Part shown: piece by piece, positions 2,488 through 6,316 of the stretch
Layout of the letters: each line of letters starts with the position of its first letter
Position numbering within the stretch: the stretch's first letter is position 1
Source: Clostridia bacterium
GTDB taxonomy: Bacteria; Bacillota; Clostridia; Christensenellales; Aristaeellaceae
NCBI GenBank assembly: GCA_017447185.1
Contig: JAFSOC010000004.1
Coordinates: forward strand, 1-64,000
Direction: 5' to 3'
DNA length: 64,000 nucleotides
The notes under the pieces: model-generated
What the model was told of the DNA's origin: nothing
The model's database searches: none
Seen by the model: only the letters and a program-made list of their open reading frames with translations
Made by a program: the position numbers and the translations under genes

Positions 2488-2525
2488 GGTTAGGTAACCC
2501 CCATAATTGTTGATAGGCGAATTCT

Positions 2526-2731
2526 CCGGCTGACCTGGTCTTTGACCCCACACACGCCGTCTGGGCGTTTGCTCTGCGCGTTCAGCGCCCTCACTCCCGC
2601 CTCTCGGGTGATCCCGGACGGACTTACACCTAGACCGCACCATGCTCCCCGCCGCTTTGGGCGGATTACGTGGACCGTTTTGCCTGCGACTGGCTTCGGC
2701 TTTCAACCACAGACCCGAAGGATTCAACCGG
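2526..2731 (-). ncRNA. Structured RNA in the zinc-ribbon leader, raiA-like candidate
   Basis: The only stretch over 300 bases without a protein gene (2488-2821) holds a compact structured RNA on the minus strand. A closing helix pairs 2724-2731 (CCGGTTGA as read) with 2526-2533 (TCAGCCGG). Inside are hairpins pairing 2694-2699/2715-2720, 2652-2655/2661-2664, 2596-2599/2605-2608, 2576-2579/2585-2588, 2554-2558/2564-2568 and 2537-2540/2544-2547, and a possible pseudoknot between the first hairpin loop and the TCGCAGG just after it. The 5' strand of the closing helix begins about 6 nt after a TATAAT box. Size, multi-helix form and position before a zinc-ribbon gene suggest the raiA motif of Firmicutes, but I cannot run a covariance search. 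No terminator separates it from the gene, so it may be a leader or a processed RNA. Confidence 0.6.
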
Positions 2732-2736
2732 CGACA

Positions 2737-2765
2737 ATTATATCGAACGGATTTTTAAAAAACAA
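2737..2765 (-). promoter_or_regulatory. Sigma-A type promoter of the structured RNA
   Basis: Reading the minus strand: TTGTTT at 2765-2760, 17-nt spacer, TATAAT at 2742-2737. Transcription would begin near 2730, at the first base pairs of the closing helix of the RNA. Confidence 0.8.
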
Positions 2766-3535: not shown

Positions 3536-6316
3536 TCACTCCTCTTTCATCGTTTCTTCAGGCTCTGTATTCCCTTCAGCCGTTTCCACGGCTGCCTGTA
3601 CCGTTTCCTCCGGCGCGGCCGGCTTGCCTTCCAGGGTGATCTGGCCGTCCTTCACGGTCAGTTTTACCTCCTGCCCGAGGCTGATCCTCCCCTGCAGCAG
3701 CTCTTCGCTCAGCGTATCCTCCACGGTCCGCTGGATCAGCCTGCGCAGCGGGCGGGCGCCGTACTTCGGATCATATCCGTCCTCCGCCAGCTTCTTTGTA
3801 ACTTCCTCATCCCACAGCAGGCGGATTTCCTGTTCCTCCAGGCGGTCCGCCACCTGCTTCAGCATCATTTCCGTGATGCGGCAGATCTCATCCTCCGTCA
3901 GCGCGTGGAAGACAATCAGTTCGTCCACCCGGTTGATGAACTCCGGACGGAACAGTTCCTTGACTTCCTTCATGACGGATTCCTTCATGGTTTCATAGTC
4001 CCGCACTTCATCCCGCTGCGCGGATCCGAATCCCATGCTCCTGCCGCTGCCTTTCACAGAGGCTCCCGCGTTCGATGTCATGACCACAATGGTGTTCTTG
4101 AAGCTGACGACCCGTCCGGTATTGTCCGTCAGCCGGCCGTCCTCCAGGATCTGCAGCAGCACATTGAACACGTCGGGATGCGCCTTCTCAATCTCGTCCA
4201 GCAGCACCACGCTGTAGGGCTTCCGGCGCACGGCTTCCGTCAGTTCGCCGCCTTCTTCGTATCCCACATATCCGGGCGGTGATCCCATCATCCGGGATAC
4301 GGTATGCTTCTCCATGAATTCACTCATGTCCAGGCGGATCACCGCATCCTCGTCCCCGAACATCGCCTCACCCAGCGCGCGGCACAGTTCGGTCTTGCCC
4401 ACGCCCGTGGGTCCCAGGAAGATGAAGCTGCCGATGGGCCTCTTCGGATCCTTCAGCCCGGCCCTTGCCCGGCGGATAGCCCGCGCCACAGCGCTCACGG
4501 CTTCCTCCTGCCCCACCAGGCGGCGGTGCAGCGTCTCCTCCAGGCGGATCAGGCGCTGGGCTTCCTGTTCGGTCATCCGGCTGACCGGAATCCCCGTCCA
4601 CTGGGAAACCACCTGGGCAATATCCTCTTCCGTCACGGTATCCCGTGCCGTCGTCTGGCTCCGGGTCCATTCGGCGCGTTTCTCTTCGATCTCCCGGTTC
4701 AGGTTCCGCTCCTGGTCGCGCAGCGCGGCGGCCTTTTCGAAGTCCTGGTGGGAAATGGCTTCCTTCTTTTCAATCTGAATGGCTTCCAGCCGTTTCTCCT
4801 GTTCCCGCACATCCGGCGGCGCCGTGCAGGCCTGGATCCGGACCCGGCTGGCCGCCTCGTCCATCAGGTCAATCGCCTTGTCAGGCAGGAACCGGTCCGG
4901 GATATAGCGTTCCGACAGCTTCACCGCCGCCGTCAGTGCCTCGTCCGTGATCCGCACCTTGTGGTGCGCTTCATACCGGTCCCGCAGGCCGTACAGGATG
5001 GACAGCGTTTCTTCCGCCGTGGGCTCGCCCACATTCACCGGCTGGAACCGGCGTTCCAGCGCCGCATCCTTTTCGATATGCTTCCGGTATTCATCCAGCG
5101 TCGTGGCACCGATACACTGGATCTCCCCGCGGCTGAGGGCCGGCTTCAGGATGTTCGCAGCATCCAGGCTGCCTTCCGATCCGCCCGCGCCGATAATCGT
5201 ATGGATTTCGTCAATGAACAGCAGCACGTTTCCAGCCTTGTGCAGCTCATCCATCATGTTTTTCAGCCGCTCTTCAAACTCGCCGCGGTACTTTGTCCCG
5301 GCCACCAGGCTGCCCATATCCAGGCTCAGCACCCGTTTGCCCCGCAGCAGTTCCGGTACGTTGCCCTGCACAATCCGCTGGGCCAGGCCTTCCGCCACGG
5401 CGCTCTTGCCGACGCCGGGCTCACCGATCAGTACGGGATTGTTCTTCGTCCGGCGGATCAGGATCTGGATGATCCGCTGGATTTCCTTTTCCCGGCCGAT
5501 CACAGGATCCAGCTCATTCTTCTCCGCAGCAGCCGTCAGGTCACGGCTGAATTTATCCAGCAGGCTCTTTTCATCCGTGCCGTTCCCGCCCTGTCGGCTC
5601 CGCACCTGGGCAAATGGCATCATGCCGGGGAAACGGCGCAGCGGTTCCTCGTTGCCTGCGTTCTCCCGCATCTGGCGCAGGAGTTCCTCCCGCGCGGCGG
5701 ACAGATCCACGCCGGCCCTGCGCAGCAGCGCGCCGGCCACGCCGTCATCATTACCCAGCAGCGCCAGCCACAGGTGTTCCACCGTGACATAGTTCTGCCC
5801 CAGTTTCCTGGATTCCAGCATACTGTTTTCCAGCGTCTTCTTCGCCCGGGGGCTCAGTTCAATTCGCGCGCCGGCCGTTTTGCTGGATTCCGCGTCGTTC
5901 AGGGCGGCAATTTCCTTTTTCAGTTCTTCCGTGACCGACTCAAAGCTCATCCGGGAGGACACAGCTTCCGGTACGGAGGCGCTGTTCTTCAGCAGGGCCA
6001 GCAGGATGTGCTCCGTCCCCACATAGGGCTGCTGCAGCTCCGCGGCAATCCGCTGGGCCAGCGCCAGCGTCTGCTGGGCTTTCTGGGTAAATCGGCCAAA
6101 AATCGGCATGGAAAATTCCTTTCTGTTTTCTGTGTTCCCGGTTGCTTTAATGGCGTTGAGAACAGTATTGATCAGGTTGTTGACGCCGCCCTTGACCAGG
6201 TCGGCGTTCATCCGGCTCATACAGTCCGCGCACAGATGCCGGACCGATGTTTCTTCTCCCGCCACTACGGAAACGGTAAAGTTCGCTTCGTTGACGTGGC
6301 ATTCCTCACACAGCAT
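3536..6316 (-). CDS. clpC: ClpC-type AAA+ unfoldase with N-terminal zinc finger
   Basis: A 926-residue Hsp100 ATPase that unfolds substrates for ClpP. In order: a Cys-rich N-terminus with C3/C6 and C29/C32, like the zinc finger of McsA or ClpE; two Clp-N repeats (about 72-215); AAA1 with Walker A GEPGVGKS near 297; a UVR-like coiled coil (about 505-545); AAA2 with Walker A GPTGVGKT near 635 and LLDEIEKAHPDV; and a C-terminal D2-small domain. Typical ClpC is about 810-850 residues and lacks the finger; ClpE has the finger but lacks Clp-N. An internal ATG (M70, at 6109) with its own AAAGGA would give a conventional ClpC. The upstream start has AGGAG. The gene follows ctsR by 34 nt; mcsA and mcsB are absent between them. 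Confidence 0.93.
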   Translation of the reverse strand: MLCEECHVNEANFTVSVVAGEETSVRHLCADCMSRMNADLVKGGVNNLINTVLNAIKATGNTENRKEFSMPIFGRFTQKAQQTLALAQRIAAELQQPYVGTEHILLALLKNSASVPEAVSSRMSFESVTEELKKEIAALNDAESSKTAGARIELSPRAKKTLENSMLESRKLGQNYVTVEHLWLALLGNDDGVAGALLRRAGVDLSAAREELLRQMRENAGNEEPLRRFPGMMPFAQVRSRQGGNGTDEKSLLDKFSRDLTAAAEKNELDPVIGREKEIQRIIQILIRRTKNNPVLIGEPGVGKSAVAEGLAQRIVQGNVPELLRGKRVLSLDMGSLVAGTKYRGEFEERLKNMMDELHKAGNVLLFIDEIHTIIGAGGSEGSLDAANILKPALSRGEIQCIGATTLDEYRKHIEKDAALERRFQPVNVGEPTAEETLSILYGLRDRYEAHHKVRITDEALTAAVKLSERYIPDRFLPDKAIDLMDEAASRVRIQACTAPPDVREQEKRLEAIQIEKKEAISHQDFEKAAALRDQERNLNREIEEKRAEWTRSQTTARDTVTEEDIAQVVSQWTGIPVSRMTEQEAQRLIRLEETLHRRLVGQEEAVSAVARAIRRARAGLKDPKRPIGSFIFLGPTGVGKTELCRALGEAMFGDEDAVIRLDMSEFMEKHTVSRMMGSPPGYVGYEEGGELTEAVRRKPYSVVLLDEIEKAHPDVFNVLLQILEDGRLTDNTGRVVSFKNTIVVMTSNAGASVKGSGRSMGFGSAQRDEVRDYETMKESVMKEVKELFRPEFINRVDELIVFHALTEDEICRITEMMLKQVADRLEEQEIRLLWDEEVTKKLAEDGYDPKYGARPLRRLIQRTVEDTLSEELLQGRISLGQEVKLTVKDGQITLEGKPAAPEETVQAAVETAEGNTEPEETMKEE
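6107..6122 (-). promoter_or_regulatory. Internal ribosome binding site and start in clpC
   Basis: On the minus strand AAAGGAAT (6122-6115) lies 7 nt before an in-frame ATG (6109-6107) that begins MPIFGRFTQKAQ, the usual start of ClpC. This could allow two ClpC forms, with and without the zinc finger. Confidence 0.55.

Follow-up and report, generated by a model that had tools for sequence, protein, structure and literature searches.

The window, by which we mean the whole stretch of 64,000 nucleotides that was analysed, carries a complete raiA RNA and, close behind it on the same strand, the gene of a small zinc-ribbon protein (Table 1). The RNA family itself is already known, and the new part is the conserved unit that raiA forms with the zinc-ribbon gene. 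Judging from comparison of related loci, we consider it likely that the two are functionally coupled. That the protein binds the RNA, or that the RNA controls the gene in cis, is at this stage a hypothesis.

Table 1. Features of the raiA/zinc-ribbon locus and its neighbours, in window coordinates.
Feature	Positions	Strand	Basis or remark
araD	3529-2822	minus	upstream of the raiA RNA
-35-like hexamer TTGTTT	2760..2765	minus	sequence; 3/6 to consensus
-10 hexamer TATAAT	2737..2742	minus	sequence; 17 nt from TTGTTT
raiA RNA (RF03072), full length, model 1-209	2521..2723	minus	cmscan 170.3 bits and covariation
Spacer, 33 nt	2488..2520	minus	without recognised terminator
Shine-Dalgarno-like GGGGG	2498..2502	minus	sequence; ATG 10 nt downstream
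Two-domain treble-clef (zinc-ribbon) protein, 92 aa	2209..2487	minus	PF13451, PF23477, TIGR04272 matches
Hpt-domain protein	2100-1732	minus	downstream of the zinc-ribbon gene

The initial annotation had suggested raiA from the letters alone, and the Rfam run bears this out. The match to RF03072 has an E-value of 4.8e-43, covers all 209 model positions, and its 170.3 bits lie far above the Rfam cut-off (gathering threshold) of 101.3 bits. It spans 203 nt, where a size of 206 nt had been given. RF03072 is the sole Rfam match at the gathering threshold within the 64-kb window, and one raiA copy was found in the 2.91-Mb assembly (88.7% complete). We conclude that the window's RNA is an ordinary, complete member of the known ModT/raiA family. 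When we searched viral contigs with one exact raiA pattern, there was no match. Rfam labels the family 'Cis-reg; riboswitch'.

Covarying base pairs in relatives had been named as a further check, and they are plentiful. We took 46 RNAs of the window's family (f1) with the Rfam structure, and as controls we used shuffled and slid partners. Of all cells, 89.4% are paired, compared with 77.3% for shuffled and 32–44% for slid partners. Changes on both sides occur in 30 of 55 pairs (19.7 in shuffles, and 0 of 500 shuffles reached as high). Double-change cells number 315, whereas shuffling gives 106 and sliding no more than 90. The helices of the raiA consensus structure thus covary strongly, the exception being two inner pairs of helix 5, which are mostly unpaired. 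By eye, the closing helix P1 may reach as far as about 2728/2516. A column comparison of linked and unlinked RNAs (mini-RNAs, described below, excluded) gave no clean signature that distinguishes them; the differences are mainly in the length of one peripheral helix, and they are confounded with family. Here and below, a locus is linked when the zinc-ribbon gene is the next gene after raiA.

A near-consensus promoter had been described in front of the RNA. Our simple promoter scan did not list this site, and 'near-consensus' applies to the -10 hexamer alone, because the -35 hexamer matches at only three of six positions. The -10 hexamer itself is exact, and it is conserved across linked loci: among 114 such loci with an RNA of at least 150 nt and 60 nt upstream (mini-RNAs excluded), there is an exact TATAAT in 98 and a match of at least 5/6 in 113, versus 33% of shuffled stretches. 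The distance from the end of the -10 to the start of the RNA model is 8–19 nt in 106 of 113 loci. The transcript start had been placed on the 5' strand of a closing helix, and the expected start, at about 2730, does fall there, in P1. The earlier statement that the RNA contains no open frame with a ribosome binding site has to be amended, as a 172-aa frame with a TTG start crosses it, in the frame of the zinc-ribbon gene. We regard this frame as chance, because the zinc-ribbon frame is open across the whole RNA in just 13 of 124 linked loci. On the same count we reject the idea that raiA encodes an N-terminal extension of the zinc protein.

The 92-aa protein has two domains, zf_Tbcl (PF13451, 3.6e-27) and zf_Tbcl_2 (PF23477, 2.1e-21), and a CxxC-x17-CxxC pattern; TIGR04272 also matches. 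A sequence search of the PDB gave weak matches only, of which the best was a LIM-type cysteine-rich protein (E 0.0024). In the protein tree, the 122 linked proteins separate from 39 paralogs of the window's family with zero misplaced (split support 0.82). The two groups of genes also differ in the Shine-Dalgarno core that they favour: GGGGG in 52 of 93 linked genes and GGAGG in 39 of 39 paralogs. Elsewhere on the minus strand of the window (3536-6316), a Clp ATPase gene adjoins ctsR. The N-terminal extension of its product is weakly McsA-like (residues 1–63, 24 bits, under the curated cut-off of 210), and the gene is possibly an mcsA-clpC fusion.

To see how widely the RNA and the gene go together, we sampled 200 genomes from the window's family; raiA is present in 168 of them and a homolog of the zinc protein in 184. 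At least 115 of the best 150 raiA matches in this sample have a same-strand gene for the protein 28–66 nt downstream. After the loci for these 150 were fetched, 119 were linked, 24 were unlinked and 7 were cut by a contig end; of the 143 loci that could be assessed, 119 thus have the zinc-ribbon gene next on the same strand. In a wider set of 201 fetched loci, from searches at family, order, class and phylum level, 124 are linked, and these come from 23 of the 38 families represented. This set is not random, as it consists of top-scoring matches and hand-picked genera. Twenty of its loci were fetched because they were not listed as adjacent, and it leaves out the superseded loci L004 and L010-L012 and seven loci with a contig end too close past the RNA. 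Of the 23 linked families 11 depend on a single locus, and 10 of the 124 linked RNAs score below the Rfam cut-off. The gap between RNA and gene is 28–50 nt in 116 of the 124 linked loci, 66 nt in one locus of the window's family, and 113–120 nt in seven, which are all seven loci of family f52. From a search with a raiA pattern, 24 of 80 named loci among the matches listed are linked; these carry the label Clostridia, one of its subgroups or unresolved Bacillota, plus Pelosinus. In Pelosinus propionicus DSM 13327 (L195), the homolog lies about 45 nt past the motif used in the search.

The genes on either side of the pair are far less constant. We compared the flanks of 87 linked loci that had both flanks, taking one locus per recorded genus and counting each genus-less locus; all of these share the RNA and the gene by selection of the set. 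Among 666 pairs of loci within the window's family, 92 share a homologous upstream gene and 12 share a homologous gene beyond the zinc gene, so the flanks turn over while the raiA-zinc pair persists. Between families (2985 pairs), a flank gene is shared upstream in 264 and downstream in 120. The linked state undergoes about 15 changes along the RNA tree, compared with a mean of 60 in shuffles (mini-RNAs excluded).

Nothing that we recognise as a terminator separates the RNA from the gene. The initial annotation had said so for the window, and a simple scan indeed lists no terminator on the window's minus strand. Intrinsic terminators are found in 0 of 116 linked spacers, and within 80 nt of the RNA in 18 of 77 unlinked loci; the search starts 3 nt before the end of the RNA model and mini-RNAs were excluded, so a terminator based on P1 would escape it. 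Inside the window's family this contrast is weak, since it comes down to 0 of 58 linked against 3 of 24 unlinked loci. Five T in a row occur in 35 of the 116 linked spacers.

Other genes can also follow raiA. The labels that we use for neighbours (comFC, hpf, secA, flgN, fliS, binding protein, HAD) were given by eye from the sequences. In 30 unlinked loci, an hpf-like gene lies 67–449 nt downstream of raiA. Five loci from genera g6 and g47 of the window's family (L013, L281, L284, L287 and L299) have another gene beginning 24–36 nt after raiA, which we take to be the start of a HAD-type hydrolase (by eye, from a sequence motif). Named records of Coriobacteriia and Acidimicrobiia have other genes within about 40–140 nt of the raiA motif, and Acidimicrobiia records often have a secA-like or hpf-like gene (by eye). 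Close spacing is therefore not peculiar to the zinc gene. Many Coriobacteriia records, for example L122, L124 and L128, have a binding-protein-like gene (by eye) within about 400 nt of raiA; the two make a further candidate pair, outside the phylum of the window.

We also asked whether the RNA and the protein occur in the same genomes. In a sample at order level, strong homologs of the protein (E<=1e-30) are present in 53 of 68 raiA-bearing genomes versus 10 of 132 raiA-less genomes (Fisher 1.8e-24, a value that is inflated by ignoring shared descent and for which the threshold was chosen after the table was seen). With any match at E<=0.001, the counts are 59 of 68 versus 33 of 132. Both sets of counts are affected by incomplete assemblies, which lose neighbouring loci jointly.

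The link is not exclusive. Among 28 raiA genomes that were reached from named loci and chosen mostly for an absent neighbour gene, 19 are without any homolog of the zinc protein, including records of Paraclostridium, Veillonella and Collinsella. Of the raiA-less strong homologs in the order sample, 7 of 9 fetched group with the linked proteins in the tree, here called the linked side (split support 0.62); four are from f12 and one each from f10, f17 and f19, and they have other leaders in front. In genome G281 (f17), a raiA RNA and a linked-side gene are both present, but separate. A tenth raiA-less genome, G072, has a raiA-like 3' end (GTGGGGTCAAAGACAGGTC) just before its zinc-ribbon gene (L350). 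Neither search recognised raiA there, and this sequence is a decayed or cut raiA copy.

The zinc-ribbon genes that do not follow raiA have leaders of their own. The unlinked paralog in the window's family (G000:C8:28875-29162, L355/L356; L335-L347, L357-L385) has one of about 125 nt, with a TATAAT-like promoter ahead of it in most loci. A CCTCC-like stretch in this leader can pair with the GGAGG Shine-Dalgarno sequence, and the probability that the latter is unpaired is 0.11 versus 0.28 in shuffled leaders (39 loci). We found no Rfam match at gathering in 14 loci of this leader, a consensus fold from the sequence alignment gave zero consensus pairs, and the energies of single-sequence folds do not stand out (mean z -0.70, with 2 of 39 below -2). 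The case for the paralog leader is thus the Shine-Dalgarno test together with complementarity by eye, because neither consensus fold nor energies support it. The linked-side genes L386-L389 (f12), L394 and L395 (f17), L391 (f19) and L393 (f10) stand behind non-raiA leaders as well, and at E<=0.05 these leaders gave no Rfam match above a family cut-off. Both f17 genes have in their leader the sequence CCTCGCTTT, which is complementary, by eye, to the Shine-Dalgarno sequence AAAGCGAGG.

Mini-raiA. Eight loci (L115, L116, L117, L119, L330 (f135), L331-L333 (f186)) have a raiA of 113–120 nt in which P1 and the conserved core are retained and most else is missing. These mini-RNAs score 42–59 bits, under the Rfam cut-off, and all 8 of 8 have the zinc-ribbon gene behind them. 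Their 3' end, AATGCC in most, can pair over 8–9 nt with the start-codon region, where about 5 would be found by chance, and by eye it has an alternative partner in the RNA's own 5' end. On this modelled pairing, mini-raiA is a possible candidate for a translational switch.

Published work on raiA describes an abundant, stable, trans-acting RNA in Clostridium; C. difficile knock-outs were rescued by complementation in trans, and the same source cites this for C. acetobutylicum as well (PMC11706538). Its neighbours in that source are comFC upstream in 74% and the raiA gene downstream in 66%, with varying distance and orientation, and a second source notes that ORFs near raiA are often hundreds of nucleotides off (PMC11477304). 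Cryo-EM structures exist (PMC11751092, PMC12286853), with two core pseudoknots, pk-1 and pk-2 (PMC11751092). The window's RNA resembles these ModT/raiA RNAs in its full-length model match, covarying helices and own promoter. It differs in its surroundings, with araD upstream and the zinc-ribbon gene 33 nt downstream, not comFC and the raiA gene.

No protein partner of raiA is named in the passages of PMC11706538, PMC11751092, PMC12286853 and PMC11477304 that we covered, and the word 'zinc' does not appear in PMC11706538, PMC12286853 or PMC11751092. The tight raiA/zinc-ribbon pair is absent from the literature that we searched, part of it in excerpt, and an earlier mention in Soares et al. PNAS 2024 is possible. 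A known parallel for such a pair is OLE with OapA and OapB. There, according to PMC11332333, adjacency was the first clue to OapA, phylogenetic profiling concurs, and OapA almost always accompanies OLE. The likeness is in a conserved structured RNA that often lies beside a protein gene, here in the 119 of 143 and 124 of 201 loci given above. The differences are that many genomes with raiA have no zinc protein and that RNA-protein binding is here only proposed.

With these observations we tentatively favour, at somewhat under even confidence, a transcription unit with two products, in which the zinc protein acts with raiA as an accessory RNA-binding partner. RNA polymerase would start at the RNA's own promoter and make the full-length raiA RNA, and it would then read through into the zinc-protein gene, as no recognised terminator lies between. 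The raiA domain would fold as in Clostridium and probably persist as a stable trans-acting RNA, either by processing or by a decay-resistant fold, as the published ModT/raiA work suggests. The zinc protein would be produced along with the RNA and, by analogy with OLE and OapA, would most likely serve as an accessory RNA-binding partner in these lineages. We say accessory and not core because raiA RNAs elsewhere manage without the protein. The initial annotation had already raised a functional partnership as a possibility, and the proposal gains comparative support because the pair is kept at short spacing, its flanks change, and the two co-occur in the order sample. The pair also persists in the two families with mini-raiA, and the linked proteins part cleanly from the paralogs. 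Against it stand the 19 of 28 raiA genomes without the protein, the 7 of 9 raiA-less homologs that group with the linked proteins, the other genes found close behind raiA and the roughly 15 changes of the linked state.

Translational riboswitches and ribosomal-protein autoregulatory leaders sit just before one gene. The window's raiA has the same position, and with them in mind one can read it as a cis-acting leader that sets the output of the zinc protein in response to a ligand or to the zinc protein itself, its trans role being secondary or lost. The leader-like position, the short spacing, the own promoter and the Rfam type label fit this reading. So does the finding that several unrelated leaders serve one protein family, two of them (the paralog leader and that of the two f17 genes) with possible pairing to the Shine-Dalgarno sequence.

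We folded the leaders with their genes to see if raiA hides the start site. The Shine-Dalgarno test covered 93 of the 124 linked loci (those with a gap under 70 nt, an RNA longer than 150 nt, an ATG where the aligned start lies and a recognisable Shine-Dalgarno sequence). The probability of its being unpaired is 0.35 versus 0.37 with a shuffled leader (n=93), and 0.33 versus 0.30 in the window's family (n=58), which is no sequestration in either case. The start codon is as open as in shuffles, at 0.41 versus 0.42 in all 124 linked loci and 0.44 versus 0.42 in the window's family. Sequestration of the Shine-Dalgarno sequence or the start codon by full-length raiA in the window's family is thus unsupported at the level of secondary structure. 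This result is not final, because secondary-structure folding omits the raiA pseudoknots. There is also no sign of the usual transcriptional switch, because no terminator was found. For the raiA of the window and its family we therefore have no riboswitch expression platform, neither a terminator nor a sequestered site in secondary-structure folds, and the window's RNA appears not to be a simple Shine-Dalgarno switch, with tertiary structure outside the model.

Together with the trans complementation in two Clostridium species and with raiA that also lies away from the gene, these folds make control in cis, the chief alternative, less likely than partnership for the window. It keeps real weight all the same, because sister genes have their own leaders and another gene can take the leader position. 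The start codon is also less open than with shuffled leaders in four families, f52, f73, f135 and f186, the last two being those with mini-raiA and its pairing to the start region.

A further alternative to the two-product unit with an accessory partner is that the gene is a passenger, sharing the raiA promoter with no functional tie. raiA occurs without the zinc gene in many lineages, its position is taken by another gene in genera g6 and g47, and elsewhere hpf-like, secA-like or binding-protein-like genes follow, all as a passenger would predict. We nevertheless think it improbable, as the same type of gene is found in 23 of 38 families with differing flanks, and mere descent leaves unexplained why the zinc neighbour stays and others do not. 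An unstructured mRNA leader that is not raiA has next to no chance of being right, as it is already refuted by a 170.3-bit match over the full model with strong covariation.

raiA is a widely conserved and complex bacterial RNA. With a protein gene close behind it in 23 of the 38 families of the fetched set, there is now a named candidate partner or target to test, and the unlinked RNAs and mini-raiA offer comparisons made by nature to show which part of the RNA accompanies the protein. A bolder idea, which we put forward as speculation and would not expect to hold, is that raiA and the double treble-clef protein form an RNP module that has persisted, or been rebuilt, across much of Clostridia, with the core of 113–120 nt in f135 and f186 doubling as a start-codon switch. 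If this were true, the f135/f186 core would bridge a trans-acting non-coding RNA and an ancestral cis-acting leader.
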